Below are positions 38,766 to 60,724 of a DNA stretch of 64,000 nucleotides, in pieces. The notes below the pieces were generated by a model that did not search any database, was not told the origin of the DNA, and worked only from the letters and a program-made list of their open reading frames with translations. The stretch spans positions 1,029,640 through 1,093,639 of the forward strand of contig JAWWNJ010000092.1 of the NCBI GenBank assembly GCA_037176885.1, read 5' to 3'. Numbering within the stretch: the first letter of the stretch is position 1; every line of letters begins with the position of its first letter. The DNA comes from Favolaschia claudopus. Taxonomy: Eukaryota > Basidiomycota > Agaricomycetes > Agaricales > Mycenaceae. The position numbers were made by a program, and so were the translations under genes.

Positions 38766-38767
38766 TC

Positions 38768-38790
38768 TGGAGCCCACCGCGAGGGGTTCA
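38768..38790 (+). other. Primer-binding site of element 1
   Basis: TGGAGCCCACCGCGAGG starts two bases after the LTR end and begins with TGG, as expected for pairing with the CCA end of a tRNA primer. The second element has the same site with one extra C (58645-58668). I cannot name the tRNA. Confidence 0.7.
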
Positions 38791-39297
38791 TTCAACCAGT
38801 TACTAGTTCAAAGTAGAAAACTTCGTACTATCGTTGGAACTGCTTAGTTCTAAAACTGGTCTTTCTACACTTCCTATAACAGGATTATACCTTGGAATTA
38901 CTCCAGGAAGAACGAAATTCGTTAAAACCCAAAAGCACCGTTGACTTAGTTCAACATTTCGGTGCAACCAGAGTCAGAAGAAATATCTGCGGACGGTGAA
39001 CTTGCTTCCACTTCGTTTGAAAGACCCAGAGTGCGGAGGTCTAGTCGGTTGAAAACACCAGCTGATCTATCTCCTCTTCCTAAAAAGAAAAGGAGTAGTG
39101 CAACTGAAGCCGGCAGAGCTCAGTCCAAGGCTAGAACAAAAGCCAGGGTTACAGCATTTAAGTCGAAGCAGAAAGCTATCGCGGAAAGACAGACGGCTTC
39201 GCAAACCTTATCAGAAGAAGAAGAAGAGGATAAAACCCCTTCTCCTACTTCTCCTACCTCCTCACAAACCTTACCATCTCAACCGTCGACTAGTACG
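38791..39297 (+). other. Leader region before gag ATG
   Basis: No ATG start in the gag frame, but the frame is open from about 38962 and reads a basic segment (RPRVRRSSRLKT, KKKRSS). It may be translated from a non-ATG start, or it may be leader RNA only. Confidence 0.4.
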
Positions 39298-40878: not shown

Positions 40879-40889
40879 AGGGTTCAGGG

Positions 40890-42110
40890 ATGGAGGCAAT
40901 CTCGCGGACCAAACAATTAGAAAAGCCTCCTGAGGACCGTACCGATAAAAGTGCCGCAGACAATAGTAGAGATTGGAGGGCAAGAGCTGCCGACGATGTA
41001 GAAAAGTCTCAGGCCTTGGAAAAGGGAGAGCCACGGCCAAGACGAGAAATCGCGATTGGTGTTGAACTTCCATATAGACAGGTGAAGCCAGTAATAAACC
41101 GGCAGAGAGACCAAAATGTTGATGAGGTGAAAGAGAATAAAGAAGCAGACGAGAGGGCATACCAGCTGAAAGCTCCAGTACAGAAAGATGGACTGGGAAG
41201 AGCAATCGCGGATGCTGTTCTAAACTCGGAAGTCACTTTGGGTGTTAAGGACTTGGTTGGAGTATCCCCAGAAGTCAGAGAAACACTTAAACGTGACTTC
41301 ACAAAGATAAGAAGGATAGTGAAAGCTCCAGGAGCTAAGCAGGTTATGTTCGAAGAAGAACTAGACCTACCCTTCCCAGAAGAGGAAGAGGAAAATCTGG
41401 AGTATGACGCACTCAACTTGGATGAACTTCCAAAAATCTCCTCTGTTTACGTCAATACGATTGAAACAGACGAATTACCGGAAGGAGCGGTGTCAATTCC
41501 GGATCCATTTGTTCAGTACTTAGAATCCCTGAGTCCTGATGAAAAACCTAAACAGGTATATATGGATCCGAGAAATTCAACCGTGGGAAGAGACTCGGCT
41601 AATCTACGAGTACTATTTCCGTCCATAAATAAGCAAGGACGGGTAGAGTGTGTATTAGACTCTGGCTCACAAATTGTGTCCATGTCTCTTGAGCAAGCGG
41701 TTCAGCTGAAGCTTAGCTGGGACCCTGACGTAAGAGTATGGATGCAGAGCGCCAATAGTACAATGGAAAGAGCCGTTGGCTTGGCAAGGAACGTACCTTT
41801 CAAATTTGGGGACATAACGGTGTACCTGCAGGTCCATATTATTAAAGGACCAGCATATAAGGTGCTACTAGGTCGACCATTTGAGGTATTAACCGAATGC
41901 CAAGTCAATAACAGTCGAGACGAGACCCAAACCATCACTATCAGAGACCCTAACACAGGCAAGCGTTGCACCCTGACAACTATCCAAAGAGGAAAGGAGA
42001 CAGAGCAATCGCGGAAGCCCACTGTAACGGTTGAAGAGGAAGATGAGCGTCCAGAAAAGACTGCTGACCCAGAATCAAAGCAGGGTTTTCGTCAAACTTC
42101 GAGGACTTAA
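40890..42110 (+). CDS. Aspartic protease ORF of element 1
   Basis: 406 codons. A retropepsin-type active site (ECVLDSGSQIVSMS) lies at residues about 252-265, followed by the flap-like and second conserved stretch (ITVYLQVHIIKGPAYKVLLG). The first 200 residues are charged and unassigned. The ORF ends TAA at 42108-42110, and the pol ATG starts on the last A (TAATG), so the two ORFs overlap by one base. In many Ty3 elements these proteins are fused with gag or pol; three separate ORFs are less usual. Confidence 0.85.
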   Translation: MEAISRTKQLEKPPEDRTDKSAADNSRDWRARAADDVEKSQALEKGEPRPRREIAIGVELPYRQVKPVINRQRDQNVDEVKENKEADERAYQLKAPVQKDGLGRAIADAVLNSEVTLGVKDLVGVSPEVRETLKRDFTKIRRIVKAPGAKQVMFEEELDLPFPEEEEENLEYDALNLDELPKISSVYVNTIETDELPEGAVSIPDPFVQYLESLSPDEKPKQVYMDPRNSTVGRDSANLRVLFPSINKQGRVECVLDSGSQIVSMSLEQAVQLKLSWDPDVRVWMQSANSTMERAVGLARNVPFKFGDITVYLQVHIIKGPAYKVLLGRPFEVLTECQVNNSRDETQTITIRDPNTGKRCTLTTIQRGKETEQSRKPTVTVEEEDERPEKTADPESKQGFRQTSRT

Positions 42111-45100
42111 TGCAATTGCATGAACGAGGAGAGTTGGCGTTGAAATTTGGCTTTAATGAAGATAAAGAGTTAGAGATTGAAGGATATTACAAGCCAAAAG
42201 GAGTGGCGTTCACGGAGACAGAAGTTCTTGAGGCCTATGTTAGTGCCTCCACGGGAACAAGGAATATGAGAAAAGACAAGAAAGCTAGAGTCTTGTTCAA
42301 CGAATTCCGCGAAAAGTCTAAGAAGACAACTGGGAAACGTAAGCCGTATGGTGTCTTCACTTGGAGCATGAGTGAGGGACCAGTGGAGGCAGGAAAAGGG
42401 AAGAATAAACCTGGGGAATTTATCCCTCCCGCACCTCGATATACTCGGAATGAAGTCAGAACTATGCATGTCCTAAATCAAGGAGTTCATTGCCCTTGTT
42501 GCGACTCAGCGGAGTTCATTCATCCGACTCTTTCTCAAGAGATATCGGAAGAACCACCTTCCGCGGAAGATCAGGAGGATCAAGATGATCCTGTTTCGGT
42601 GTTCGCTGGCAAAAAGTACAAGCCAGTAGGGTTGAAGATTCGTCCTGTATATACTGAACTACCTGAAAAGTTCAGAATAAAACGTGAAATTACGGGCGAT
42701 CCTTTAGCAGAAATGCCTGAACTAAACCCTGTACCAGGGGAGTTCAAACCCACAGGACGTTACACCGAGGAGAGAAAAGCTATCATCGATGGACTGCATG
42801 ATGGGGACTTCTTGTGGCCTGAAGAAAGGAAATTGATGCATGAATTCATGATGAGGCAAGAACAAGCCTTTGCTTGGGATGATTCAGAGAGGGGCAGCTT
42901 CAGGCATGATTTCTTTCCTCCAGTTGAATTCCCTGTTGTGGAACATGAGACGTGGGTAGAGAGGAGTATTCCAATTCCAAGGGGACAGCTGGAAGAATTC
43001 TGCAAAGTAATTAAGAAGAAAATAGACGCTGGAGTCTATGAGCCATCGAATGCTTCTTATAGAAGCAAGTTCTTTGGAGTTGTAAAGAAAGATGGAAAAA
43101 GTATTCGGCTGGTGCATGCGCTAGAACCTTTGAATGCAGTCACTATCGCTCATTCTGGGGTTCCACCAGCTACGGATGAGTTGGCCAACCATTTCGCGGG
43201 AAGAGCCTGCGGTGCCAGTTTGGATCTCTACTCAGGTTATGATCACAGGGATATCGCGGAAGGTTCAAGGGACTATACGACGTTCCAGACACCTTATGGG
43301 GCACTACGCTTAGTAAAGCTACCCCAAGGTTGGACAAATTCGGTTCCCATCTTTCACGATGATGTGACTTTCATCTTAAGAGACGAAATTCCACATGTAA
43401 CTATACCCTATATTGATGATGTACCTATAAGGGGACCTGGTACGAGGTATCAGAATAAACATGGCACGTATGAGACCATCCGCGAAAACTCCGGAATAAG
43501 GAGATTTGTCTGGGAGCACTTTCAGAATTTGAACAGAGTAGTTCAGAGAATCAAATATTGTGGGGGAACCTTTTCTGGAGCTAAATCAGTACTGTGCTGG
43601 GATGTATTCCCAGTAGTAGGACATATTTGCTCTTATGAAGGTCGCCGTCCTAGTACGGATAGAGTTGGTGTTATCATCCGCTGGGGACCCCTCAAAGATG
43701 TTTCTGGAGTCAGACAATTCCTTGGAGTAGTTGGAGTCTTGCGGATGTTTATAAAAGGATTTGGGGATATGAGTAGGCCTATTGCGAAGTTAACTCGAAA
43801 CGATGAAGAATTCGTTTGGGGGCCTGAACAAGAGGCAGCCATGGAGGTAATAAAGCATGCGGTGCGGACCTGTCCAGCCCTACGGCCGTTAAATTACGAC
43901 TGGGATACGGACATAGTTCTCGCGGTTGATACTTCTTGGATGGCCGTTGGGATTCAAATATATCAGATAGATATAATTGATAAGTTGAAAAGGCATTACG
44001 CAAAGTTTGCTTCAATCACACTCAACAGGCGAGAATCCAGATTTTCACAACCCAAGAGGGAGTTGTACGGGCTAAAGAGGGCCTTGGAAGCAATGCAGTA
44101 CTGGCTGCTGGGGTGTAGAAGGCTAGTTGTGGAAACTGATGCGCTGTATATCAAAGGAATGTTGAACAATCCCGGTATGGGCCCGAATGCCACAATCAAC
44201 CGTTGGATTGAACAAATCCTGATGTTCCATTTCAAGTTGAAACACGTAAAAGGAGCCACTTTTCCTCCTGATGGCCTCTCGAGACGGGAATATCAGCCAG
44301 GGGATGAAGAATTCCCAAACAATGAAGAGGGTTTGGATGAGAACCCTATTCCGGGGAACCATGAAGATTGGGACTATGACTGTGAGCAGCCTTTGGATTT
44401 CGACGAATTCAAGGACGAAATAGACGAAAGGGGTGGATACCTGCAGTCTATGGCTGGCACAGCAAGCAGTATTGATGAATTCGCGGAAGAACTACTTTCC
44501 GCGGAAGCTCAGGAGAAAGTGATTTCTGACCGGGTGAAAGAGGTATACGTTGGAGAAGGACTAGTAGTGCCTCAATACATTAATGTGAACGTTGCGGAGC
44601 CTACAGAACCCCTGCTACCAAGCAGAGAATTCAGAGATAGTCCAGATAAACGGGAACCTTACCCGGAGGAGCATCGTACAGGTGCGGGGATAGCACAGGA
44701 CGAGCGGATTGAATTAGTGAAGATATGGCTCAAGAATCCCATGGTTAGGCCAGAAGGGATGATGGTCAATAAGGACTTCAAGAGGTTCATGAAGTTCGCA
44801 AGATATTTCTTCTTGAGTAAAGAAGGAAAGTTATACCGTAGAGGGGAAGGTTCTATGCATAAGCTAGTAATCGCGAAAGAGCATAGAATGTACATGATGA
44901 GGGCGGCACATAATTCCTTGGGTCATAAGGGCATATTTGCAACCAAGTCTCTATTAGAACTGCGTTTCTGGTGGCCAGAAATGGAAAGAGACGTTAAATG
45001 GTTCATAGACACTTGCAAGATATGCCAACATCGACAAAAGACCTTGCTCAGAATCCCACCAAGACCTACGCATACTCCAAGCTTGTTCCAAAAAGTACAT

Positions 45101-46255
45101 GCAGACGCTATGGTCATGGGGGTAGTATCCAACGGGTACAGGAATGTCGTCGCAGCGAGAGATTCGCTTTCGCGGTATGTCGAAGGGAGACCTTTGCGGT
45201 CGGAGAACGCGGAATCCATTGGGAAATTCCTATTGGAGGAAGTGATTTGTAGATGGGGGTGTCCAGAGACAATAGTCACTGACAATGGACCAGCATTTGT
45301 GGCTGCTCTAAAATGGCTAGCGTCTAAATATGGGATTAGAGGAATAAAGATATCTCCTTATAATTCCCAGGCGAATGGTCCTGTAGAGAGGGGACACTGG
45401 GATTTGAGACAGTCGTTATACAAAGCAACGGGAGGTGATACTAAGAAATGGTACTGGTTTTTCCACCAAGTATTATGGGCAGATAGAATAACTATAAGGA
45501 AAGGGATGGGTTGTTCCCCTTTCTTTGCGGTCTCAGGAGCCCATCCTATTCTACCTCTTGATGTGGAAGAAGCGACCTGGCTTGTCGAATACCCTGGTGA
45601 ACCTATTACCACTGCCGAACTCATTGGCCTAAGGGCAAAAGCCCTTGCAAAACACTCTCAACACGTAGAAGAAATGAGGATTCGTGTTAGTGAGGAAAAG
45701 AGGAAGTTAGTGCGACGGTACATTGATATCCATAAGAACACCATAAAGGATTTCAATTTCAAACCAGGGGCACTCGTTCTAGTAAGGAACACAGAGACGG
45801 AGAAGTCTTTGAATAGCAAAATGGATCCTAGATATTTAGGGCCGTACATTGTGGTGCGCCGTACAAAGGGAGGAGCGTATCTGCTCTGCGAGCTAGATGG
45901 TTCTATGTTACAAGGGAGAATTGCTCAGTTCAGAGTAATACCTTTTGAACAAAGACAAGCAATACAACTCCCAGAAAATATACTAGATCTCATCGACTTG
46001 TCGCAGGAAACACTCGATGAGATGGCTGAGGACGATGCTGAGGAAGATCCATTCCTAGGGAAGGACTTACAATTCCATAAAATTCGTCTTAATGATCAAC
46101 TGGAACCTTCCGCGGAAACCAATGATGGCTCCGAGGAATCAGAGTCGGACGGTTATGAAAGTGATGAAGTTCCTGATTTGGACTTAGACGAGATAAGGAA
46201 GGAGACTTCCTATAAAGAGGAACCCAGGCGGTCAAAGAGGAATAAAGCCACATAA
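42110..46255 (+). CDS. pol: Reverse transcriptase, RNase H and integrase polyprotein of element 1
   Basis: 1,381 codons, intact. The RT domain covers residues about 300-480, with the catalytic PYIDDVPI near residue 433. RNase H starts near residue 600 (LAVDTSW), with ETDAL near 676. Integrase follows: the HHCC zinc-binding part (HNSLGHKG, CKICQH) near residues 930-970, then the DDE core (HADAMVMG, TDNGPAF, GPVERG), whose last two acids lie about 35 residues apart, then a GPY/F module (LGPYIVVRR) near 1243. No chromodomain is seen; the C-terminus is acidic (SEESESDGYESDEVPDLDLD) and then basic (RRSKRNKAT). Confidence 0.93.
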   Translation: MQLHERGELALKFGFNEDKELEIEGYYKPKGVAFTETEVLEAYVSASTGTRNMRKDKKARVLFNEFREKSKKTTGKRKPYGVFTWSMSEGPVEAGKGKNKPGEFIPPAPRYTRNEVRTMHVLNQGVHCPCCDSAEFIHPTLSQEISEEPPSAEDQEDQDDPVSVFAGKKYKPVGLKIRPVYTELPEKFRIKREITGDPLAEMPELNPVPGEFKPTGRYTEERKAIIDGLHDGDFLWPEERKLMHEFMMRQEQAFAWDDSERGSFRHDFFPPVEFPVVEHETWVERSIPIPRGQLEEFCKVIKKKIDAGVYEPSNASYRSKFFGVVKKDGKSIRLVHALEPLNAVTIAHSGVPPATDELANHFAGRACGASLDLYSGYDHRDIAEGSRDYTTFQTPYGALRLVKLPQGWTNSVPIFHDDVTFILRDEIPHVTIPYIDDVPIRGPGTRYQNKHGTYETIRENSGIRRFVWEHFQNLNRVVQRIKYCGGTFSGAKSVLCWDVFPVVGHICSYEGRRPSTDRVGVIIRWGPLKDVSGVRQFLGVVGVLRMFIKGFGDMSRPIAKLTRNDEEFVWGPEQEAAMEVIKHAVRTCPALRPLNYDWDTDIVLAVDTSWMAVGIQIYQIDIIDKLKRHYAKFASITLNRRESRFSQPKRELYGLKRALEAMQYWLLGCRRLVVETDALYIKGMLNNPGMGPNATINRWIEQILMFHFKLKHVKGATFPPDGLSRREYQPGDEEFPNNEEGLDENPIPGNHEDWDYDCEQPLDFDEFKDEIDERGGYLQSMAGTASSIDEFAEELLSAEAQEKVISDRVKEVYVGEGLVVPQYINVNVAEPTEPLLPSREFRDSPDKREPYPEEHRTGAGIAQDERIELVKIWLKNPMVRPEGMMVNKDFKRFMKFARYFFLSKEGKLYRRGEGSMHKLVIAKEHRMYMMRAAHNSLGHKGIFATKSLLELRFWWPEMERDVKWFIDTCKICQHRQKTLLRIPPRPTHTPSLFQKVHADAMVMGVVSNGYRNVVAARDSLSRYVEGRPLRSENAESIGKFLLEEVICRWGCPETIVTDNGPAFVAALKWLASKYGIRGIKISPYNSQANGPVERGHWDLRQSLYKATGGDTKKWYWFFHQVLWADRITIRKGMGCSPFFAVSGAHPILPLDVEEATWLVEYPGEPITTAELIGLRAKALAKHSQHVEEMRIRVSEEKRKLVRRYIDIHKNTIKDFNFKPGALVLVRNTETEKSLNSKMDPRYLGPYIVVRRTKGGAYLLCELDGSMLQGRIAQFRVIPFEQRQAIQLPENILDLIDLSQETLDEMAEDDAEEDPFLGKDLQFHKIRLNDQLEPSAETNDGSEESESDGYESDEVPDLDLDEIRKETSYKEEPRRSKRNKAT

Positions 46256-46492
46256 AGTTGATTAAAAGGAACGTGGAATAGCATTTACAGAATAGTAACG
46301 CTAAGTTGGAGGAGAGTAAAGACAGACGATGAGTTGGACTAAAAGAACGGGGTATATGCTAAGAAAGGGACATAACCCTAAAAGCAAGAAGTAGAAGGAT
46401 GGGTATGGCTAGCGCAATGGGGACATTCTGCAGTGGGGCGTTGGATTCCAAAGAAGGCATCCAGATCGCGCTCGGCGAGTTCGGCTAGAGAA

Positions 46493-47919
46493 TCACTGAA
46501 AAATTAGGTCAGGGGTTTTCCGCGGAAGCTAAAATCTGGCTTACCTGCGACGATGGCTGGGCACTTGCTGCTGCGGGGGGTTGTTCGCGCGTGTGTTGAA
46601 GGTCGAGAACCCGCCGAAGGTCGGTGAGGAGGTACTCGCGATGCTCGAGGTGGTATCGAAGTTGGGCATTCTCGAACCCGACGCGGGACCGGAGGTCCGC
46701 CTCTTGGAGACGAAGGGAACCGATCGAATCGGCCGGGGCGCCTTTGACGGCATTGCGCGCTTCGGTAACAGTTTGGCGGATTGCTTCATTGTTAACCGAT
46801 AAGTCTGTGGCTGTACGATTGTTAATTAAGATGAGATTAGCAATCGCGGAAGCTAACTCACCTGCGTATTGGTCTGCAGAGTCTTCGTGGGCGAAGTTTT
46901 GCGATGGCCGAGCCCGTTTTCTGGGAGGTGGGACTGGGAAGTCCTCAACGACGGGTCCTGACGCTGATTTAGGGTCAGTACGAGCGAGAATTGCCATAGC
47001 CTTAAGATATTGGGGCGCTCTTCGGTCAAGGCCTTTTATGCGAAGGAAGGAAAGGCGTACCGAGGAAGGACGCGTACTGCCGGGTTGGGATTGACTCTAA
47101 AAGGAAGAAGTCAACAATAATAACAACCATGGATAGTATCCGCGGAAAGTCAAAGTTGGACTCACCGCACTGTTACGGTCGTCGAGAGATTGAGTCGACC
47201 GATGGCCTGAAGGACCTGCGTCATTCTATAAGTCCCAATCAGAGAAAAAGGAGAAAAGCGAGTTGCAAAACTCACTGAGTCGTCGACGACCATAGCATCG
47301 TCTTGCTCAGCGGGCAACTCAGAATCATCGAAGGGAGATTCATCTCCGTCCTCAATAATGGCCTTAGACTTCTTGGCCTTGGGTTCCTTCTAAAAATAGG
47401 CATAATCAGGCGAGAGATAAGCAAAAGAGGCGAGAACGTACGCGGGGTTTAGGAGTGGCCTTGGCCTTGCGAGATGAGCGAGACTCCTGGTCCTCCGCCT
47501 GCGCACGAGCATCTTCCAGCTCCGTACGATGCGCCTGCTGACCAGCAACGACGTTAGCACGAAGGAGTTCGCGCTCGCTCCTGATCTTGGCACAAAGATC
47601 AAGGATAACGGGATAGCGCCCGCCAATTACACCATTTGCGCCGACAGCGCTTTGGTGGTAGCTGTTCTTGACGCTGTAGAAAGCATCATAGAGAGCTTTG
47701 TCCTTGGCAATTTCGCCGATAAGTGGCGCAAACGCTTCCTAAAGTCCGGTTCAGAGCATCTGCGGAAAGTCCAAATACGGAATTTACCAAGGACACAGCC
47801 TGTTGATCAAGGAAAGCGCGCTGCTTGTTGCGGTCGGGGTATTTGGTGGCCGAAACGATGTCGGCGACGCCCAATATAGCATCATGCTGGGCTTTTGTAA
47901 GAGAAGCGCGAGGAGCCAT
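46493..47919 (-). CDS. Antisense gene 5 of element 1: eight-exon protein, intact
   Basis: I do not know its function. Eight minus-strand exons (47779-47919, 47442-47738, 47276-47389, 47166-47225, 47061-47096, 46862-47000, 46545-46810, stop codon in 46493-46495) join with no frame conflict to 351 codons. Without splicing, every frame is closed. The N-terminal third is helical (ASLTKAQHDAILGVADIVSA, then FAPLIGEIAKDKALYDAFYS); a basic patch follows (RSSRKAKATPKPR, KEPKAKKSKA), then an acidic, Gln/Ser-rich linker, then a second basic patch (PPPRKRARPSQ), and finally a long coiled coil (QEADLRSRVGFENAQLRYHL). Several introns contain CCGCGGAA or CGCGGAAG words. It is opposite in strand to gag-pol, after the pol stop. 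Its product could bind nucleic acid; that is inference. Confidence 0.75.
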
Positions 47920-48516
47920 GTTAAGGAGTGTGGGGTATTCAGCGAATGTACTGGTAAAAGGCGTATAATACAGGAAGGTTTTATACGTCGGTACTGTAGC
48001 AGCGGGCGCCATATTGAAGTACGACTCTCGTTCAAAGAAATTAACTGGGGACAGTTTAAAATCTATGAAAAGGGGAGGAATATAGTACAGAGGCCCTGAC
48101 ACAACAAATTACCAAGACATTCCGGAGATACGAAAGGAGAAGAGAACAATGGGAGAATTGAAGGCAGCAAAAATAGCGCAACAAGAATCCATTGTTCTCG
48201 GATTTAACTCCGAAAGATGTGGATGAAGTCGTGATAGATCGTCCGGGCTTCAGTCTAAAAGGGGAAATTTCCATGAGGACCGCACCAGCCGTCGGGATTA
48301 TGACTTAACGACAGAAACACGAGCGCGGGAATAGGGATAAAAGGAGTAATTGGGCCATAGGCCCAAGAGCGGGCATGAATAGAAAGCGAAAGAGAGCTTT
48401 CGCGATTGCTCACTTAATCGATAGATTATGGGTCTTAAAGGAGTAATTGATTCCACAAGGACAAAAGTGTCTAAGGAACGTTACTAAGTAAACTAAGCCT
48501 AAGACCATAAGCTAAT

Positions 48517-49211
48517 TCAAGCTAAGGAGAGCTTGTGAAACTCGTCAATCGCTAGTTCAGTTCTGAGGAAGGCATTAACAGCGGAGAAAGCGTTTAGTCT
48601 AGTATGAACGACAGTCTGAACTTCGACTGGGAAGTGGTAGAAAGGGAAAAGACCAGCAAGGTAGCTAAGGCGATCTTCGTCAAAGATAGCTTCGACCTGG
48701 CTAAGAAGGGAGATGCGAGGGTTCCTCCAAGGAGATACTCGCGAGTCAAACTTGCGAAAGGCCGCTTGGCAGCTAGCAAAGAACGTGGGCCTCTTGCCTA
48801 GCATAGGTCAGGACTGCGAAAGGACGAAAATGAGCTTCCGCGGATGCTAAGAAATAAGCAAAACACACCTGGATCAATGGGGTCTTGCAAGGCGAGACGT
48901 TCCATTTGAAGCCTATCGCTTTCCAAAAGCTCGACGAAGGCCAAGCGACTGCAGAAGGAGCAAGCAGTGCTGGTACCAGAGGCGACACAAGTCAAGCAAG
49001 GAATCCCCCATTGAACGAAGCTGTTGGAACGACGACAGTTGTCTTTGATAACAACGTCGAGTGGTCGTTGAACAGGGTTCTGAATAACAGGATGAGAAAT
49101 ACGAAGTAGACAGAGAGAAAGGGGACTTACCCAATGAGAGAAGTCTTTCTCGACCAGCAAGGCTGGGAAAAACCCGATAGGAATAAGGCGATAGGATAGG
49201 AAAGTCGTCAT
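48517..49211 (-). CDS. Antisense gene 4 of element 1: Cys-motif protein, intact
   Basis: Three minus-strand exons (49131-49211, 48869-49079, 48517-48797) join to 190 codons plus stop. A cysteine motif spans residues about 53-70, CLTCVASGTSTACSFC (C-x2-C-x8-C-x2-C), preceded by KDNC, so it could bind zinc. The first exon is hydrophobic (LSYRLIPIGFFPALLV). The C-terminal part is helical (PRISLLSQVEAIFDEDRLSY, VVHTRLNAFSAVNAFLRTEL). From memory, similar Cys-containing proteins occur in many agaric genomes beside retroelements. An overlapping start at 49260 leads into another frame and was not used. The intron at 48798-48868 contains a CCGCGGAAG word. Confidence 0.7.
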
Positions 49212-49647
49212 CCGTCGCAGTTCCAAGAAGGAGAGGAAGAGCAGGAGCTACGTCCGACATAGTGGTGGAAGACAAGCTGGAAATCCAAGTATTCGCGGAA
49301 GCCTCTTAAATAGAGTTTCTGTGGGAAAAATTCCCGATATAGAAGCTCGGTGCGGAAAGAGCCGGTCTATATCGATAACTCTGGACGATGGCTTATCAGA
49401 CGGAGATAAACCAGCCACGAGGGAGAGACGGTAGTCTGTTGCTTGAATTACTCAGGTCACACGAGGTAGGAGCAGGATAGCGTGATCACATTGCGACTAT
49501 TCGAAGTACAAAAGTAATAAGAGAAATTGAAAGAAAATCAGATACGAGTGGTATCTAAGAAGAGTCATTGCAAGTATTCGCGACGTTTACTGAAATTATC
49601 TAAGTAAAACGGAGTCAGCGAGTAAATAGCAATGAAAAGGGGACTAA

Positions 49648-51333
49648 TTACGGGTCACCACGAGGCTTGGATGGACCAGCCACGGGAGCAGATGGAACAG
49701 GAGGAAGAAGAGAACCTTCCGCGGAAGCGTCAGTTTCCTGAAAATCAAGGAAAGGAAAGAGCTTACCTGGGGGAGCGGTATCTAAAGACTCAAGAATGGT
49801 CTGCTGAGTGTCGACATCCATGTCAGGATGAGCATCAACGACCATATCAGGATGAGCCTCGCGGAACCGGGCGAAAGCTTCATCCTCCGAGTCCTCGGAA
49901 TCCACCAAGTCGTAATACTCGTCGGCGCGGGTGCCCGTCCTCCATCCAGAAGTTCTTCCGCAGCCCCTCACGCCAGTGCTGATAGACCACCTCGAACGAC
50001 TGTCGGTCGCCCTCCTCGAGGTCTTCCACGCCAGCAATACCAGGGACAGCTTCAGGACCCATGGCAGAGGCATAGCCGGGTCATAAGCGACAAGAGTTCG
50101 TCGCGAGCACGAAAGAGGCGGCGGTTGGCGATGGCATACTGAGCATGGCTCACGATTTGAGCCTGGCGGGCCTCCACCAACTCGAGTGAACACACGATTC
50201 CAGCCTAAAGAGAGGTTTGAACATAAGAAATGCTCAAGTAGAAAATTGGTTACACATACCAGCATTGGAGAAAGCAGTGATTGGGGCAAACCCCTCAATC
50301 ATTCGTATAACGTCCATTTGAGTGAACTTATGCGAGCAATGGAGAGTTTCCCTCGTTTGCAAGCACGACAGTCCTTGTTGAACTTTGAACGGTGGCACTT
50401 GCGATTGCGAAGGATGCAATTCCCGCATCCCGCCAATTGCTAGGAAAAGAGATAAGGGACACGGGATGCGGAGGAAAAACAAGAAAAGGGGACGTACCAA
50501 GACATTGTTCCCATCTTTGAACAATGTGCGGAAGTCAGTCTCTAGTTTGGACAAAGCAACCGCGGCGAATTCTTGATCAAAGATGACGGGGTCGAAGTTG
50601 GGGACGTAAGGGGCTTCCTTGTTCTTCTGGGACACCCCACGAGTCTTCTTGACGAGTTTGGGGACTTGGGAAACGTACCCGTCGTCCGACTCTTCAGATT
50701 TCGCTCTTCCTTTACCTTTCGCGGAAGCCTTTTCGGAGACCTTGCGACGTTTAGGTGGCGGGGAAACCTCAGGTTCACCCTCCTCGTCAGAGCTGGACTC
50801 CTCGTCATCGGCTTCCTCGAGTTCCGCGCGACGGCGCTTCGAGAGACGAGCGGGCTTGGTTTCCGCGGAAGACTCGTCTGGGTCGAGACCAGTCGCAACG
50901 GCCTCGAGAGTGTTGTCAGGCTAATTAAAGATGGATAAGGAAATCTTCCAAAGAAGGAAGGTAATAATAACGTACTTTGATCTTGGTACGGGTGCTCCGA
51001 CGGGTAGCGACGGAAGTACCTCGGCTACCGCGACCACGTGAGCGAGATGACGAACGGCCTCTGGACTATAAAAAAGTCTAAGTCAGTAACTAGCAAAAAT
51101 AAGGAAGAGAGAACGCTTACAGACGAAGCTGTTGGGGCAGCGGGAGGTTCATCAACGTAAGAATCAGCGCCGCCTCCTCCACCTCCTCCTCCGCCAGAAA
51201 GCGACTCGTGAGCAGCTAGCTCAGGAACGCTCGACTCAGGCTCGGGTTGGGGAGGGTCGACCTGAATGGGCGATGCAGGCCCTGGAGAACTCGCGCTAGG
51301 CGCCGTTTGAGTTGATAAAGTGAGCGCGGCCAT
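49648..51333 (-). pseudogene. Antisense gene 3 of element 1: probable Zn2Cys6-type protein, frameshifted
   Basis: The start is ATG 51333 (MAALTLSTQTAPSASS). Clean exons: 51121-51333, 50976-51065, 50498-50920 (141 codons) and 50260-50439, all phase 0 at first. The order is Pro/Ser/Gly-rich, Arg/Ser-rich (SRGRSSSRSRGRGSRG), acidic, then a basic segment (PPPKRRKVSEKASAKGKGR). The 50260-50439 exon opens with CGNCILRNRKC followed, after eight residues, by CRACKRGKLS. If a single missing base near 50345 is allowed, a sixth Cys follows, giving C-x2-C-x6-C-x8-C-x2-C-x7-C, the Zn2Cys6 pattern. Further exons (about 49880-50200 and 49648-49720) need at least two more one-base shifts. Confidence 0.6.
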
Positions 51334-52345
51334 GACTAGCGCCGCGGGTAGCAGAAGAAGCGGGCGTAGGATCCACAAAGGGATCTTCCGCGGAAGCGTT
51401 CCCTTCGCCCGATGGACCAGATTCCGCGTTCCCAGTGGATGGAATAACGGTCTTCCCTGGAGAAATAATAAGCGGAGGTCCATCGGAACGATACCAGTTC
51501 GGAACTGGAGAGAAACGACTTATACCTTCTAAAATAGATGCCGCTGAAGCATCTGCGGGGTGAGAAACGGATGGTGTGGATACCGCTGACTTCGGAGGAG
51601 AGGAGTGCGGGGCCAGGCGTGCCAAAAGAAAGTCCGCTAGCAGGTATCCCTGGGCCAGATAAAGCACTGGGACCAGCGCGGGGAGTTTCCGCGATTGCTG
51701 GCGTAGACGGCGCAACTCGAGGAGTTTGGAGACCAGAACCAATGGGGCTAGCAGGCGAATCAGGAGGGTTGTGGTGACGCCACGCGTTCTACCACAGGGG
51801 TCCTCCTGGCCGACTTGAGTCCAAGGAAGAAACTGGCCTTGAGGAATAAACTCGGCGTCTGGATACGAAAAGAAGACAGGGATCAACAGATGTTGACGTT
51901 CAGGAATGGGGAAGAACGCGGTCCCAAGCCTTGGGACGCTCATCCTCAGGAATCCGCGATGCCAACAGGACAACGGAAGTGAGGATGGCATCCGCGAAAG
52001 GTCGGTCCTGGACGTCGCCAACTGCTTCGTGGAATTCGTTCTGCGAAACGAATAAGTTGAAGTTGGAGAACGAGTATTTGGAGAAAGAACACTTACCAGG
52101 GTCATGGCGGAGCGGCTAATTAGCTGACGAATATCCGAACGACGAGAAACGTCGAGCGGCGTTCTCACATCCGCTCCAGCCGCTGAGCTAGCGTTCTCGA
52201 CACATGCCTCGAGGAGAGCGGGAAAGTTGGGGTCGTCACGAAGGTCGTAGAGAGCCTTGTGTTCTGTGGCGTTAGGCTTTAACACCTCGCGAGGAAAATC
52301 TGAGTAGAATTCCAACGAGTCCGGAATCGTGAAACTCTGATCCAT
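51296..52345 (-). pseudogene. Antisense gene 2 of element 1: unassigned protein, frameshifted
   Basis: The start is ATG 52345 (MDQSFTIPDSLEFYSDFP). Exon 1 (52097-52345) and exon 2 (from 52040) join in phase, giving AMTL then NEFHEAVGDVQDRPF. After PKAWDRVLP the reading shifts to other frames that look coding (RQHLLIPVFFSYPDAEF, then a Pro/Ser/Gly-rich stretch, then PPLIISPGKTVIP), so two or three one-base changes are present. The last frame ends at 51296 and overlaps the start of antisense gene 3 by 38 bases in a different frame. I recognise no domain. Confidence 0.5.
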
Positions 52346-52418
52346 GATGGAGAGCTGGAAAGGATGAGTCCTGAAAAGTCTAGACGAGTAAAAAGACGAC
52401 GTACGGAAGCAACCTTGT

Positions 52419-52990
52419 TCAAGTCAAACCTTGGGGGAGGACTTCGTACGGTTCAGCCCAGACGTCGGGGAAGTTGGTTTGAAGCCAGAGAGCAATTGAG
52501 CTCACACCGACCAAGACACGGTCGAAGGCGGGCGTAATCTCCATGTGGTGATAGAAACGTTTGATGAGTTGCTAAAGAAAACATCAGGACTTCAGAAATG
52601 GAGGACTGGTACCTTCCGCGGTAGCTTACCGAGACGGGTTTGAACTGCTCAAGGAGATAAACGATGTAGGTGGGGTTGGAGTTCGATAGACGCGATGGAA
52701 TGCGTATGAACTGCATTAGGCGCACAGTTGAGATGTGCTGAAGGAGGATTAAACACTCCAAATCAGCGCGGGGAGAGAACGTCGGCCTGTCCATCAGCTC
52801 GGTGCGAGCCAACGGGATGAAAGGGGCGCGACATATGGTTAACGACGTGGGCATCGTTAACCTTGTAAGGGATGACACGAATGCCAGCCTTACGAGCCTG
52901 GGTATACTCGTCGACGGAGAGGTCCTCCATGACAAGCGTGCCCGTCATCATCTTGAGGAAACTGAAGTACTGGGAAATTGGAGACGACAT
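52419..52990 (-). pseudogene. Antisense gene 1 of element 1: unassigned ~170-residue protein, two frameshifts
   Basis: A 5' UTR intron ends just before ATG 52990 (MSSPISQYFSFLKMM). Exon 1 is 52630-52990, exon 2 is 52419-52572, with the intron between them containing a CCGCGGAAG word. The reading frame shifts once after VVNHM (about 52830) and once in a run of A at about 52560; otherwise the protein reads well (DRPTFSPRADLECLILLQHI, SNSNPTYIVYLLEQF, LWLQTNFPDVWAEPYEVLP). Both faults are single extra bases. I know no function. Confidence 0.55.
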
Positions 52991-53443
52991 CTTGTCTGTG
53001 AAACAGTCAAGATGGTCGAATCGTGAGCCCAGGAGCACCCGTATAGCTCCTACACGCACCTAGGGTGTTAGTTGAAGGAGTTTGAGTAATCGCGGTAGCT
53101 GGTTGTTGTGGGAGGAAGCAAGAGAAAAGTGGGCGGAAAGCGCTGCAAAACCAACATAAATCACGTGTCCCGCAGTCTAACGCACGGACCACTTACAAAT
53201 TCTCGAGCAAACAAAGGCGCAGAGTTGCGCTGGGATAAGGGCAATAGCGGAAACGTTTTATAGGGGATCTCTCGTCATTTAGCGAAGATCCCGCTGTCCA
53301 TCAACGGAACCAAATTTCCAGGTGGCGGACGCCCAATCGGGAATTATATCCGAGATAGCCGAATGATTGTGGGAAGCACCACGAATAAAGAGATAAAATG
53401 AGTCCTGATAAAAGACATGGTTGAGTGGGGACACTCAATTTAT

Positions 53444-53455
53444 GAAAAGGGGAGA
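53444..53455 (+). other. Polypurine tract of element 1
   Basis: GAAAAGGGGAGA lies directly before the 3' LTR, as expected for the plus-strand primer. Confidence 0.75.
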
Positions 53456-54823
53456 TGACAGACCTGGTATTGGGCTACGCCTGAATTTATTCATTTTAAG
53501 GCTAGTTACAACGGTACTATTAATAAAGTACTACAATACTCAGCGAATGAGTCTCAATAAGGACTGAGGTCTGCCTGGGCGGTCAGTCAAAGGAGAATAC
53601 ACAGGTGGGAGCTCTGGGGTCCGTTTACGATGGCACTGCAAAGTGTCAGAGTTACAATAAGTCGGACATGAGCTTCCGCGATAGGTCTCTTACCATCCGG
53701 AATAGGATTGGGAGTTACCTGGTGCTCCAGGAACAAAGGCGTACATTGAAGGACATTCCATTTGGGACTCGTTGGAACTCGAGAGGTGTTACCAGGAGCA
53801 GGAGGCTTCCGCGGAAAGGTTCTAAGACAGGACTATAACTCAGGAACGTTGGCGACCTGTAGGAAGAGAATATTCCTTATTCACGCAGTGCTACTTGGAG
53901 CAAGTAGATCATCGATTGGATAGCAAGAGGGCTATTGATTCATGACCGGAGATATCAGTACAAACGGGGAAGATCTACGTTGGCCAAGCCAGGAGAACAA
54001 TGGTATCCAAGAGGATGCCGGAGGTAGAACAATGGTATCTAGTGGGCGCCGGAGGTAAAGGCGGTAAATCCCTCACCAGTACCGGAGGAAAGCCTTTAAC
54101 AAGTAAAACTGAATGAGGTCTGGACCAAGAGGGTCCGGAGTTACCAATATTATACCCATAAGATGGTTTGTTTATCGTCTCATATTTATTGCTGTGAATG
54201 TATATAAAGCACTGTATCATGTACTGGAGCTCTAGTGGATTCCCCCCTCTCGTTGTGAGCGTCAAGCCAGTATCGGCTTCGTGAATAACCTAGACGTTGG
54301 ATTTCATTCGAGATAAACTCCAGAAGCTTATTTGTTTCTTTTGTTTGTTTTCGTTGCAATATATTGTCTGTTGGATCATATCTTGAATTATACGCGTGAA
54401 CATCTTATTGAGATCAGTACCAACGCGTGGAATTATAAGAGCCTGACACGGACCTTTTGAGAGAACGGAATCAGTTCAAACATACTTTCCGCGGAAACTC
54501 ATTTTGCGAACGAGCACACACAACTTAAACCTCTAAACCTCTACCAAAGAGTAACATCTCAATTACCTGTCGGAACGCACCTTCCTGTGTCAAGACTAGG
54601 ATAGTTAGTATAAGAACGGTCGGAACGAGCTATCGCGAAAGCCTCGAACTAGTATATTTTGAAGATAGTATTGGTTGAATTGCAACAGTCCTATACTGGA
54701 CTGGAACCCCGAACCTCGCACGTCGATTAGAAGTGGTTAGGATTTATATTGGGATTTTGTGTGGATTTGATTCTGCGCATTTTCTTGGTTTATTTCCACC
54801 GTAGCCCCATAGTCAGTGTTTCA
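53456..54823 (+). repeat. 3' LTR of element 1
   Basis: 1,368 bp, nearly identical to the 5' LTR. TTCCGCGGAA palindromes at 53807-53816 and 54487-54496. The end TTTCA abuts the truncated minus-strand gene on the right. Confidence 0.92.
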
Positions 54824-55609
54824 CCGTTGACCCAGACACCGAGGAAGCGCTCGTCCGCCCGAGGGAATTGGACTCCTCGCAGCTGGTCCATGGTCGCTCG
54901 ACCCAAGACACGCCGCGCATGAGTCATGGAGAGCCATGCCTCCTTCTCCCGTAGTCCTCGTTGTGCTGCCACGCCTCGGTCCACCGCGTCTCCCCAAGTC
55001 CTCACTCCCATCAGTTCAGTGATGACCGTCGAAGTCGTGTATTGAGGGTGATTGGCCCAGGTTGTCGATCCACCGCGAAGTCGGGTTCTCGTGTCTTCCA
55101 TCCGACCATCCAATTCGCTCCGTAGTGTACTCATGCGATGTATGAATTCGAGGCGGAAAGATCCCTTGCGAGGGTCCCGCGAGTCCACGTCCCATTGGTT
55201 CATGAGCGGTTCGTAGGCGACGTAAGCGAAGTCGTCGGAGGTGACGGAGTAGGGGCGGCGTAGGTACGGCCAGTGCGCAATGAATTCCCCAGAGTTGTGA
55301 GGGGAGAAGAGGCAATCCATCCGCCCGATGTGCCCGTCGTAACGACGCTCCTCCTCCAAAGCGGGGAATCATAGGCAGAGGCCCAGGTGCTCTCCATCCC
55401 GGCAGGAAGGGAGTCTGCATTGAGTTGGGAGACCATAACTCCCATCGTCGCCCTTGTCCATCCTTTACCACTCTAGAGTTCACTTGCGGGATTCGACGCA
55501 ATTCGAACTTCATCTTCGAATACACTTGCGGAGGAAGGTAGTACCCCGCTGTGCAGCTCAGTCGGGAGCCCCAGTAGCGCGGAAATTCGGGATTCGGAGC
55601 AGTAGACAT
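54824..55609 (-). pseudogene. Transposon-associated agaric gene, truncated by the LTR
   Basis: The start is ATG 55609 (MSTAPNPEFPRYWG). The reading (YYLPPQVYSKMKFELRR, RRWELWSPNSMQTPFLPGW) moves by one base at about 55360 into EEERRYDGHIGRMD, then stays open to ERFLGVWVNG, where the LTR begins. From memory this protein type is multicopy in agarics and is normally longer at the C-terminus; its function is unknown to me. The rest of the gene is not on the other side of the LTR element, where an F-box gene lies instead. Confidence 0.65.
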
Positions 55610-55621
55610 GCTCGTTTGCAA

Positions 55622-56185
55622 GAAGAGGTTGAGTCGAAGGGAAAGGGATGTTCCACCGGTCGAAGATTCCGAGCCCCAGCCAAGATCGCGTCGGAACGCG
55701 CGTCAAGGCCGAGCAATGAGAGGAAGGGGGTCGAGAGAGGAGATAGTTAGAAGAAGATAGTAAGCAGCTAAGTAGTACACAGGAACACTGCAGCAAGATT
55801 GCGTCGAAACGCGCGTCCAGCCGTAGTGGTGAATGAAGAAGAGTGTACGAAAACTACAAGGTACAAATTCACACGTACGTAACTCTATCGGTCGCCTCGG
55901 CCGATAGTCCGAGTACTAAACAAAAGGTAATTTATGCATATTTAAATACTCCGTTTGAGTTCTGGAGCATTTCTGAGGTCCAGCTCGGAAACCCAGGTGT
56001 CGTCCGCAGGTCCAAATCCTCGCCAGCGAATTCTGAACATTCTCTGGTTACCCTTCTTTCTTGACTTCGTCTTATGACCCAATATGGCCTCCACAACATA
56101 TTCCTCCGTCGCACTGAGATAGTCGCGAGTATCCGGGAGGACTGTACGCTCCCCGAATTCATCCTTGGATACGTGATATATGGCT
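55622..56185. other. No recognisable gene
   Basis: Small ORFs on both strands without motifs. This is likely the promoter region of the truncated gene on the left, followed by unassigned DNA up to the MITE. Confidence 0.4.
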
Positions 56186-56962
56186 GTAATACTGGGGCAT
56201 AATTATTTTGCGCTCAGCTTTGTGAAAATTCTCACAGGTCGAGTGCCAATCAGCACAAAAATACACAGCTGTCAAGGGTGCAGCAAAACACACACCTTTT
56301 GTGCAGGAACAAAGGACACAGCCACGTGTCCCTGCAGAAACCCACACAGCTAGCAGTTGGCGTTCAAAATCGGGCAAGTCAAAGGGCTGACGGATCACAC
56401 GGATCAAAAGAATATCCTGCGGCATCACAAAGGGCATCACAAATCCGCTCACCAAACACACTCAGTGCCCCAGCTGAGCACTACCAGGTTCATTTTAGAC
56501 CATAATGATAGCTTTGACTTTGGCTAGAGACAATCACACTTCCGACAGCTCTGCATTAATGATACTACCTGATCTGTAAAAATATGAGGAAGTACTTGGT
56601 GGGTACTTATTTGCAGATTACTTCTTCGTCGTATTTGGCTGGCCATAAGATATTCAGTTTCAAAAACCAAAGTCTACCATCTCAAAAACCATACATCTTC
56701 AAGGAATTATAACTGCAAAGATCGAAGACACATCACAAATATGCCCAGGCCATCACTTCGGCAACAGTCAGTACATCGGCAATCTGACGAACTTTGAACT
56801 TGTGCGTTTTTCCTAATTTTCAAAGGTGTGCATTTTTTGTGTGGTGTGTATTTTTGCGGCCCATGCACACACCTGTGTATTTCTCTTGTGTCAGCTGTGT
56901 GTTTTTTGTGCTCGGTTGTGCGTTTTTCATCGAAATTGGACATAATTATGCCCCAGTATTAC
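56186..56962. mobile_element. Palindromic MITE, about 777 bp
   Basis: Perfect 20-bp terminal inverted repeats: GTAATACTGGGGCATAATTA at 56186-56205 and its complement at 56943-56962. The arms continue as imperfect inverted repeats rich in CACA/TGTG words (for example near 56250-56300 and 56830-56930), so the whole element can fold back. No coding content is convincing. I see no clear target duplication. Confidence 0.7.
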
Positions 56963-56999
56963 CCCCCAAAGTGATATTTCCGAAGGTGTTCCAGATTAA

Positions 57000-57225
57000 T
57001 CACAGGATGCATCGGGTAAGTGTCGGGGAGGCGGAGTCGATAGACGACGGGGTTGACTTTCTCCAGTACTTCAAACGGCCCAATGGTGCGCGTGCACCAA
57101 CTTCTTCCCCGTTCCTTCCACATCTACTAACTCCAGCGAGTGGGGGGTTGACCAGAACATAATCCCCTTCCTCGATAGGCTCCACAGGACGCCGTTTCTT
57201 GTTGTAAGCGCGGTGATAGGCCTGG
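57000..57225 (-). pseudogene. Scrap of a Ty3-type integrase C-terminus
   Basis: Minus-strand reading gives YNKKRRPVEPIEEGDYVLVNP, the typical segment before the GPY/F module, then a diverged continuation. It is a different family from the two elements in this window and belongs to an older insertion cut by the second LTR element. Confidence 0.55.
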
Positions 57226-57228
57226 GGA

Positions 57229-58642
57229 TGAAAACACCCCGTGTTTTCTCAATTTTTGAACATGTTTAATATTATATAACGTGTGTTTGAACTAAGAGGA
57301 ATAAAGGGACATCTCTAGGATATATCTCAGAGGGTTAAAGCGTACCCGCGCTGTTAACTAAATGATGCAAGGGAAAGCTAGACTCGTCTACGACTTATGA
57401 TTATCCAGAAATGAATACTCATACACGGTAGTCGAGGATAACAATCCTCTTCTAAGTCCAACCATTCTACCAATTGAATTGGGACCTAAGGGGACATCAA
57501 GGAACATGGGATAACATTGAAGGAATACTTAGGCAGCGCGCCTAGACCAAGATCAAGGGATTCGAGTCGCGGAACGACGAACCAAGGGGAAACCGAAGTA
57601 GCGGCATAAGGATTGCCGAAGATGCCGAAGAGCGGATCATCATAGGATCATGATCTTGAGGAGATTTCTCTACTCAAGGACGAATTAGAAGTTCTGGCAA
57701 GAGCCGGAAGGACCTTACCTCGAGGCGAGGCATGAAGCAGGAACATTCGTATCCTCGAAAGGCTAGCCGCGATGAGTGGGATAGAAGCCAGTATCAAGTC
57801 AAGGATCGGGAGGATCCATCACGCACACGTGACCATCACGAGGGATCGACGCGATAGATGCGATAATGACTCCTCGTGTGTTTACACGTTACTCGCGCGT
57901 GCAACCACAACACACAGGCGTGACTTAACAGCCTCGTCTGCTAAATAAGGACAATACACGTACCAGGACACGTAGGTAGATACCCAATTAAGATGTAAAT
58001 ATTTATTCGAGCGTAGTATATAAAGCCTGTAAATTATTAGCTGGCATCCAGTGGATTGCTCCCTCCTTGATTGTCCGTGTAAGCTATCAGCCGCACGTTC
58101 AGTAAAGAGTGTTCACATCCAGTGGGACAACCCAGGGAACTTACTTAGTTTTTCTGTTTTGTTTTCAATCTATAAATTGGACTTGTGATTTGATCAGAGA
58201 ATTGTTAAACGCGTGAAATAAGTGAACTTGAACGGGAATCAGGACGCGTGAAACGTAATTCTGAGATAAGAGAAACGCGAGTACAAGGGATATAAGCGCG
58301 ACTTAACAGTCTAGTGCCATATTCCATCGGATTGAAAGGAAACTTGAACAAGATAAATTACCTAGACTCCTACAACCAACCGACACAGCGAAAAACTAAG
58401 TCCTGAGTTCGAAAGACTCAAATAGGATCGAGTCGCGCCAACTCAAAGCAAGTTTTATCGAGTCAAGACACCTCGAATTGTATAACATATATCCTCGGAT
58501 TGGGGAATATAGTCAGATTGCCACAGTAGATACGTTACTGGAACCCCGACTCGCACGCGAAGCTGAAGTTGTGGATTTTGTTTGAAGGGATTTATTATCT
58601 CAACGAATAAAGTTATACAATAAACATATAGCAAGCGTTTCA
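57229..58642 (+). repeat. 5' LTR of element 2
   Basis: The start TGAAAACACC is inferred from the TG and the end of the older integrase scrap; the end GTTTCA is fixed by the primer-binding site. Length about 1,414 bp, similar to element 1. The 3' LTR is outside the window, so the left boundary is approximate. Confidence 0.65.
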
Positions 58643-58644
58643 TC

Positions 58645-58668
58645 TGGAGCCCCACCGCGAGGGGTTCA
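58645..58668 (+). other. Primer-binding site of element 2
   Basis: TGGAGCCCCACCGCGAGG, two bases after the LTR end. It matches element 1 except for one extra C, so both elements use the same or a very similar tRNA primer. Confidence 0.7.
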
Positions 58669-59201
58669 TTTGGCTATTACTTCATAGAAGTAATTTATAC
58701 ATTCAAGGTCTATTGGCTTTTGGAACTAGATTTGCTACAAAGGCGCGCTAAATTCTAGCCGCGACTCGGGCATATCCTTCGAAGAGCTCTTAAGGCTTCG
58801 AAGCGCGACTTGGACAAGAAAAGTCGCAACTGGATCTTAGATTCAGTAAAACTAGAACACAGACACTTTGTAACTGGAGTCTTTCGAGATTTCGGGAGAC
58901 GGGGAACAATCTTCAACTGGTTTTCCAAACCACTACACAGACGTTCCGACAGGCATAAAACTCCACAAGAGTTACCTCGCCTGCCTTCGAAGAAGAAGGC
59001 AAATCACAAACGCCTGCTGAACAAGGTAGAGCCGAAGTTAAAGGCAAAACCTCTGCTCGAGCAAAAGTGTATCAAGAAATAAGCACGGCTTCTTCTCACA
59101 ACCACAATCGAGCCAGGAACCTATAATTGAGAGAAGAGAAAATCTCGACTCGCAAAAACAGTTCTCAGACTCTAGGTTCAGAAGATTTAAGTCGAGGCAG
59201 A

Positions 59202-60713: not shown

Positions 60714-60724
60714 AGAGCTCAGGG

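Follow-up and report, generated by a model that had tools for sequence, protein, structure and literature searches.

How can a retrotransposon carry several genes full of introns on the strand opposite to its own gag and pol, and what might such genes do for it? The question is raised by a Ty3/gypsy element (37403-54823) of the wood-rotting basidiomycete Favolaschia claudopus (Mycenaceae), which lies in a stretch of 64,000 nucleotides of contig JAWWNJ010000092.1 (positions 1,029,640 to 1,093,639), hereafter the window, whose numbering is used throughout. Between the pol gene and the 3' long terminal repeat (LTR) of this element is a block of genes read on the minus strand. The block consists of three genes, G1, G2 and G3, which are under frame-specific purifying selection and belong to several element families of the same genome; a palindromic motif, dispersed along the elements, differs in place between families. 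On these features we favor, with modest confidence, a role of the antisense genes as regulators of their own element. The first-pass annotation of the window had described an LTR retrotransposon with a block of antisense, intron-bearing genes, and this description holds, with LTRs, plus-strand gag, protease and pol genes, and minus-strand genes in 46256-53455.

The gene models were built from reading frames and from comparison among copies of the element, and are as follows.

46256-53455, minus strand: antisense gene block, 7.2 kb, between pol and the 3' LTR
46493-48012, minus strand: G1, 399 amino acids (aa), 7 exons (48012-47788, 47738-47442, 47389-47276, 47225-47166, 47096-46862, 46810-46545 and 46495-46493)
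48517-49260, minus strand: G2, exons 49260-49131, 49079-48869 and 48813-48517
49648-52990, minus strand: G3, about 980 aa, 8 exons, with a Zn2Cys6-like cluster
50330-50442, minus strand: stretch of G3 encoding C-x2-C-x6-C-x8-C-x2-C-x7-C, the pattern being that of copy C97

G1 was open across its seven exons in all nine aligned copies of the window element's family, family A (the window, L002-L008 and C143), and all indels between these copies inside G1 fell in predicted introns. The gene had been proposed earlier with eight exons and 351 codons at 46493-47919; the gene is real, and its model changes to seven exons and 399 codons. The start of G1 is most likely at 48012 rather than 47919, because the N-terminal extension is kept in a second family, B, and in two Mycena homologs (P0010 and P0018). 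Just downstream of G1, at 46380-46480 on the minus strand, a CPHCASHTHP reading was well conserved in copy C46, but across several frames.

G2 was intact in the sister copy C97 (211 aa, three exons). The G2 frame of the window was disturbed by two single-base insertions, which were absent in seven other near-identical copies and in C143. The 190-codon, three-exon gene at 48517-49211 that had seemed to splice cleanly was mis-modelled over these two extra bases; G2 of C97 starts at the match of 49260 and uses a different 3' splice site. G3 was open through eight exons in C97 (981 aa), and its frame in the window was disturbed by private short indels. From 53300 to 49600, the window and C97 differed by no substitution and by 13 short indels (twelve of one base and one of three), of which 12 were inside G3; C143 agreed with C97 at all 13. 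The assembly is described as 20x PacBio, Arrow-polished, with RNA-seq produced for its annotation (PMC10905254), and given this type of assembly the private indels are read, without proof, as probable assembly errors. They account for the extra genes of the earlier count, which had been at least five: the apparent several genes in 52990-49648 are a single G3 split by private indels, and the 190-codon form of G2 has the same origin. A 29-nucleotide "intron" near the end of G3 was dropped, being too short, and the frame is open without it.

The genome searched for relatives comprised 264,566,041 bases on 460 contigs, and the pol copy counts are lower bounds, 34 of 2212 candidates having been scored. 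Family A had at least eight pol copies (92-100% identity, one with stops), to which C143 is added (LTR pair 99.9% identical). Family B, about 70-71% identical to A in the DNA of the G1 region, keeps G1-G3, the primer binding site and the leader. None of its seven fetched copies had room for gag-pol between the 5' LTR and the block; both LTRs were present in six of the seven, the pairs being 98-100% identical, and C127 showed no second LTR. Family C had at least 15 pol copies at 85-86%, and the one fetched (C86, LTRs 99.9% identical) contained G3 in antisense orientation; its 8.4 kb 3' of pol gave no match to G1 or G2. The LTR of C86 was 94.6% identical to that of the B copy C7, and LTRs near other C pol copies were 96-97% identical to that of the B copy C26. 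Family D had at least 11 pol copies at 75%; the copy fetched (C205, LTRs identical at 1330 of 1330 bases) carried an antisense G1, a weak G2 and zinc-cluster genes. Family E was read in one copy (C1:4778200-4794200), with about 64-74% identity to the pol of A, in pieces, and with two antisense zinc-cluster genes 3' of pol that matched G2 and G3 weakly (E 0.001). Two A-like copies, C46 and C363 (L011 and L013), carried insertions and had no match to about 44746-46198 of pol; many CCGGACCCCGGAAATA-like repeats were seen in C46.

A search with the G1 exons returned 84 matches at 77 places, which formed three main sequence groups and were stop-free in 81 cases. Eleven matches had 95-100% identity, 26 had 76-78% and 33 had 59-63%; the remaining 14 were fragments or belonged to three near-identical copies with a stop. 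When all 34 pol matches were set against 55 of the 84 G1 matches, G1 was located within 3 kb 3' of pol in 8 of 8 A copies, 10 of 11 D copies and none of 15 C copies, and it was antisense in all 18 cases. Antisense placement was observed in many copies of A and D and in the copies of B, C and E that were read.

Outside F. claudopus, a protein search with G1 (7997 candidates scored) gave 27 proteins, which belonged to F. claudopus and to eight Mycena species (M. albidolilacea, M. epipterygia, M. leptocephala, M. olivaceomarginata, M. filopes, M. latifolia, M. rosella and M. vulgaris). The Mycena homologs were 36-56% identical and all annotated as hypothetical. Four of the eight species had two to six homologs apiece (P0007-P0027), and the multi-copy homologs are likely genes of transposable elements that were counted as host genes. 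A profile of the C-terminal half of G3 matched eight proteins, all of F. claudopus, and in two cases G1 and G3 models were numbered consecutively or nearly so on a shared contig (P0015/P0034 and P0003/P0029). With residues 1-360 of the family B G3 as query, none of 1577 candidates was a homolog at E 0.001, and a scan of IMG/VR gave no relative of G1. A one-off capture of host DNA is very unlikely, because of the 77 G1 places, the uniform antisense orientation, the gag-pol-less family B and the homologs in eight species. As judged by sequence comparison, the block belongs, as a resident module, to a lineage of Ty3/gypsy elements in the Mycenaceae.

Between the window type of A and C143, omega was 0.124 for G1 (398 codons), 0.077 for G2 (210 codons) and 0.127 for G3 (979 codons); for pol it was 0.028. 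The two other frames of the same exons gave values above 1.8 for each of the three genes. The exons of G1, G2 and G3 contained 0, 0 and 1 gap columns in this comparison, and the introns 7, 2 and 33. G1-G3 are under frame-specific purifying selection. Within family B (C7 versus C127), omega was 0.078 for G1, 0.261 for G2 and 0.221 for G3, the G3 comparison containing 605 exon gap columns and two stop codons where the gene of C127 is incomplete or misaligned. The A and B proteins were 74% (G1), 42% (G2) and 33% (G3) identical, with synonymous divergences of 1.5, saturated and 3.0, respectively. Conservation of the exons in other copies, which the first-pass annotation had named as a check, was thus found, both in the nine open copies of G1 and in the selection on all three genes. 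Synonymous divergence between the window element and C143 was 0.14 in G1, 0.24 in gag, 0.42 in pol, 0.44 in G2, 0.49 in the protease gene and 0.63 in G3, and this several-fold spread along the element suggests recombination between families.

The pattern C-x2-C-x6-C-x8-C-x2-C-x7-C was present in G3 of families A (C97 and C143), B (C7, C66 and C127) and C, and G3 of D and E showed close spacings. Among the G2-like genes, the six-cysteine pattern was complete in D and E and reduced to C-x2-C / C-x2-C remnants in A and B. Seven of eight G3 relatives carried the UniRef label Zn(2)-C6 fungal-type, and sub-threshold matches to Zn_clus were obtained for six of seven members (best E 0.05) and one of two full G3 proteins. 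Gal4-type Zn2Cys6 factors have the spacing C-x2-C-x6-C-x8-C-x2-C-x6/7-C and recognize CGG half-sites. G3 is like them in its cysteine spacing, and CGG half-sites are found within the core CCGCGG of the palindrome described below. From this Gal4-like pattern we infer that the product of G3, and in D and E also that of G2, is a nuclear DNA-binding protein of the Zn2Cys6 type. For G1, a helical N-terminal domain and a C-terminal coiled-coil-like helix were predicted, along with a basic, nuclear-localization-like stretch recognized by eye. The model of a family B protein (P0001) placed the helical domain at residues 39-163, followed by a long C-terminal helix, with a mean predicted local distance difference test score (pLDDT) of 63. 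Sequence searches of the PDB and a fold search with this model yielded no significant match, and no Pfam family scored above its cutoff for G1 or G2.

A possible target of such a protein is a palindrome that recurs along the element.

37754-54496: palindrome TTCCGCGGAA, 11 exact sites in LTRs, introns and genes, starting at 37754, 38430, 42559, 44497, 46108, 46518, 49717, 50861, 51386, 53807 and 54487

The 11 exact sites of the window element compare with none in 26.6 kb of flank. Genome-wide, TTCCGCGGAA occurred 584 times versus 166 for the reversed control (3.5-fold), and this excess indicates that other families share the palindrome. Among the genomic sites listed, four pairs about 5.3 kb apart led to family E. 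The consensus motif was AGCTTCCGCGGAAGCT in A and AGCnnTCGCGAnnGCT in B and C. The core CCGCGG occurred 14 times in A (2.6 expected; maximum of 60 shuffles, 7), 15 times in C143 (3.0; 6) and 41 times in the 14.9 kb of E (2.6; 7), and elsewhere once and not at all in two B copies, twice in C and once in D. The core TCGCGA occurred 19 times in the B copy C7 (3.7 expected; shuffle maximum, 9), 15 times in a second B copy (4.0; 10) and 20 times in C (2.4; 6), with two occurrences in E and five in D; the counts for C and D cover the fetched sequence, which excludes the middle of pol. In the flanks, both cores were within the shuffle range. Motif discovery by expectation maximization gave 16.1, 14.3 and 13.4 bits of information for A, B and C, and shuffle maxima of 11.2, 9.9 and 9.9 (five shuffles each; 25 seeds for shuffles and 40 for data).

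The difference between families arose in place. At 10 of the 13 A sites in alignable stretches, a core of the B/C type was found within the same 18 aligned columns; the site at 38430, compared with both families, had a counterpart in B but not in C, and the core at 47147 was shifted by a few columns. From A to B/C, CGG/CCG triplets had become CGA/TCG in 10 of 18 cases in the motif and in 12 of 132 outside it, and were unchanged in none of 18 and 37 of 132, respectively (Fisher p 1.2e-5), the triplets being not fully independent since they form palindrome halves and the LTR part is present in two segments. Enrichment of the motif in A, B, C and E and the in-place switch from A to B/C are direct observations; we read the difference as a putative coordinated change of recognition sequence and not as drift. 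The motif type tracks G3: it is common to B and C, which are 88.5% identical over a 61-aa stretch containing the cluster; for A and C the figure is 42% over 59 aa.

Several results weigh against a family-specific protein-motif pair, the main gaps being family D, which has no convincing motif, and the surplus of TCGCGA in A. The latter core was also enriched in A (11 occurrences; 3.7 expected, shuffle maximum 8) and C143 (9; 3.8, maximum 8), A was enriched in the mixed core as well, and the partition by family is not clean. In D, expectation maximization gave 11.8 bits versus a shuffle maximum of 10.8, which is close to the flank control (11.3 versus 10.4). The D candidate tcgAGTCGaGg (CTCGAG 16 times, counted without shuffles) was rejected as no better than that control, and a D-like word, AAGTCGAGG, was seen four times in 55500-64000. 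As the flank of the window element shows, simple repeats can also beat shuffles in the 9-mer test. Seen from the B/C side, the switch was weaker (10 of 34 versus 12 of 223). Family E has the CCGCGG core of A despite a distant zinc cluster, indicating that overall similarity is not a simple guide to motif type. Sites occurred also in exons and gag-pol, unlike the targets of the VANC proteins considered below. As to the protein, G3 differs from Gal4-type factors in that its score for Pfam Zn_clus (PF00172) is below the gathering score (10 and 13.1 bits versus 21). The AlphaFold model of the C-terminal half of G3 was unusable (mean pLDDT 40), and the scan of the incomplete copy C46 found no zinc cluster. 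The sequence RNRK inside the cluster is common to A, C and most B copies read, and the source of a change in specificity is not visible there.

The sense part of the element is organized as follows.

37403-54823: Ty3/gypsy element of F. claudopus
37403-38765, plus strand: 5' LTR (TGACAG...TTTCA), 98-99% identical, blockwise, to the 3' LTR
38768-38786, plus strand: primer binding site TGGAGCCCACCGCGAGGGG
38962-40878, plus strand: gag open reading frame (ORF) with a CCHC zinc knuckle
40890-42110, plus strand: aspartyl protease ORF
42110-46255, plus strand: pol ORF with reverse transcriptase, RNase H and integrase in gypsy order
53444-53455, plus strand: polypurine tract GAAAAGGGGAGA
53456-54823, plus strand: 3' LTR, the pair being about 1.36 kb each

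The features of Ty3/gypsy elements (Metaviridae) were found in the TG...CA LTRs, the primer binding site, the polypurine tract, the order of reverse transcriptase, RNase H and integrase, and a target-site duplication. In families A, B, C and D, every copy read had the same primer binding site. In pol, the Pfam families RNase H, H2C2 and rve scored above cutoff and RVT_1 below it (25.7 versus 29.6). The pol protein was 100% identical and stop-free in seven copies, including the window element; an eighth was 92% identical and contained stops. Perfect 4-bp target-site duplications flanked six of the eight copies with both flanks read (C143, C26, C7, C154, C132 and C66, the last pair read by eye). 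The flanks of the window element, GCGT (37399-37402) and CCGT (54824-54827), differ by one base, and C163 had no clean pair. All six identical duplications were centered on CG (CCGT, ACGC, GCGC, CCGT, ACGT and GCGG), a pattern seen as well in both flanks of the window element and on the 3' side of C86 and C205. This suggests an integrase that may prefer CpG. No Rfam family was found in the window. Its right end (60958-63982) contains remnants of another, degraded gypsy relative, with protease and reverse transcriptase/RNase H stretches.

The reading that we favor, at somewhat better than even confidence, is that the antisense genes encode DNA-binding regulators of their own element, with G3 reading the palindrome and activating the element, or relieving its silencing, in trans. 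LTR-driven sense RNA would be the template of replication. We infer that the antisense genes are transcribed in vivo from the integrated copy, spliced by the host and translated. Introns would persist because the RNA that is packaged and reverse transcribed is sense, and antisense introns cannot be spliced there. The same explanation had been offered in the first pass and agrees with the presence of introns in every aligned copy, as expected if sense RNA alone is reverse transcribed. G3, with G2 and with G1 as a possible partner, would then enter the nucleus, where the G3-type protein would bind the palindrome of its own family and counter silencing or activate transcription. Acting in trans, it would serve other family members, including the non-autonomous, block-only family B. 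Family B may depend for gag-pol on C-like elements, the two having LTR, primer binding site and motif in common.

Other explanations were considered against this regulatory role. The antisense proteins might instead serve replication (nuclear import, packaging or integration targeting), the palindrome being a host-factor site used as an enhancer. The predicted helical, partly coiled-coil-like G1 (mean pLDDT 63) with its basic stretch would suit such a task, family B keeps the primer binding site, the leader and the block, so that the genes could act in replication, and the six identical CG-centered duplications could mean a guided integrase. A concerted change from CCGCGG to TCGCGA is, however, unexpected for a host-factor site within a single genome that contains both families, each of them young, and the palindromes are spread across coding and non-coding parts and not located at a promoter; we regard this explanation as unlikely. 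Repression of own or rival copies, as a form of copy-number control, would draw on the same data as activation, namely a self-encoded, putatively DNA-binding protein, element-wide sites and different sites in rival families. It is less probable still, since the block-dominated B elements moved recently, as their 98-100% identical LTR pairs indicate, which fits a benefit in cis better.

That the antisense transcripts act as RNA, through double-stranded RNA or interference with the sense transcript, the proteins being secondary, is improbable. Antisense transcription over the region from pol to the 3' LTR can yield double-stranded RNA, as discussed for plant elements in the available text of PMC7264820, but constraint at the codon level and avoidance of indels in exons need a protein function. 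Least credible of all is passive cargo without function for the element, whether the genes were taken from the host or came with another mobile element that became nested once, in reverse. It would suit the lack of any Pfam match above cutoff to G1 or G2 and four fragmentary G1 matches outside the examined set (C166:50086, C394, C143:589610 and C9). It is opposed by the purifying selection on the genes, by the occurrence of these genes in A, B and D, and of related zinc-cluster genes in C and E, at high or saturated divergence, by the G1 homologs in eight Mycena species and by a family B that is without gag-pol and yet has the block.

No description of the block or the motif was found in the literature searched, which covered titles and the beginnings of abstracts, with most subscription journals outside the coverage. 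New with respect to this literature are a basidiomycete retroelement with several many-intron antisense genes, a family with the block and no gag-pol, and the in-place motif switch. VANDALs are DNA transposons. In Arabidopsis, they encode the anti-silencing protein VANC, for which motif binding and loss of methylation were shown (PMC5735166). Judged by the accessible part of that paper, the elements studied here (A, B, C and E) are like VANC systems in encoding a protein of their own and in having a short, family-specific motif that is dense in the own element and changed in related families, a likeness of sequence features alone. VANC motifs are mainly non-coding and were spread by tandem repeats; here, unlike there, no tandem arrays of non-coding DNA were present, and the sites were dispersed, also in exons. 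A wider proposal, which we put forward tentatively and regard as somewhat doubtful, is that a fungal Ty3/gypsy lineage evolved self-encoded, sequence-specific anti-silencing or self-activation independently of VANDALs, with motif and reader switching together at family splits.

The HBZ gene of human T-cell leukemia virus type 1 (HTLV-1) is spliced and encodes a nuclear regulator, a basic leucine zipper protein, in the 3' part of the virus. Both HBZ and the block are antisense in the 3' part, HBZ being a single viral gene; it is mentioned in PMC11963269. Conserved antisense additional ORFs between pol and the 3' LTR are described for the plant Ty3-gypsy elements Retand, Grande and RIRE2 (PMC11963269 and PMC7264820), and the available parts of both papers call the roles of antisense genes in LTR elements unknown. 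The likeness lies in the long, antisense-coding region that separates pol from the 3' LTR and, as in family B, in some non-autonomous members; Retand encodes a putative DNA-binding TRP28 and Grande a nuclear gene23 protein. For the A and B versions of G1-G3, a search at E up to 1 gave no match to TRP28 (PF04195). Unlike Retand and Grande, the present element combines three many-intron genes, a Zn2Cys6 pattern and a basidiomycete host, and the word "intron" does not occur in the main text of either paper. Tandem repeats are found in about half of the Retand elements, according to the same sources; here the palindromes are dispersed. Among fungi, the Boty/BcGypsy1 element of Botrytis cinerea carries the antisense gene brtn (Zhao et al. 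2011, cited in PMC8365987). Compared by its description alone, this too is an additional antisense gene of a fungal gypsy element, with the difference that it is a single gene.

The block is unusual in that several spliced genes under selection are present even where the enzymes of the element are absent, and are tied to a motif that changes concertedly. What makes its role directly testable is that it encodes a DNA-binding-like domain, that the predicted target exists in two versions within one genome, and that a clear cross-specificity is expected. The arrangement would show how intron-bearing genes can persist in a retroelement. If the wider proposal is true, the switch of the half-site from CGG to CGA would partition one genome into separate regulatory clubs, the members without gag-pol included.

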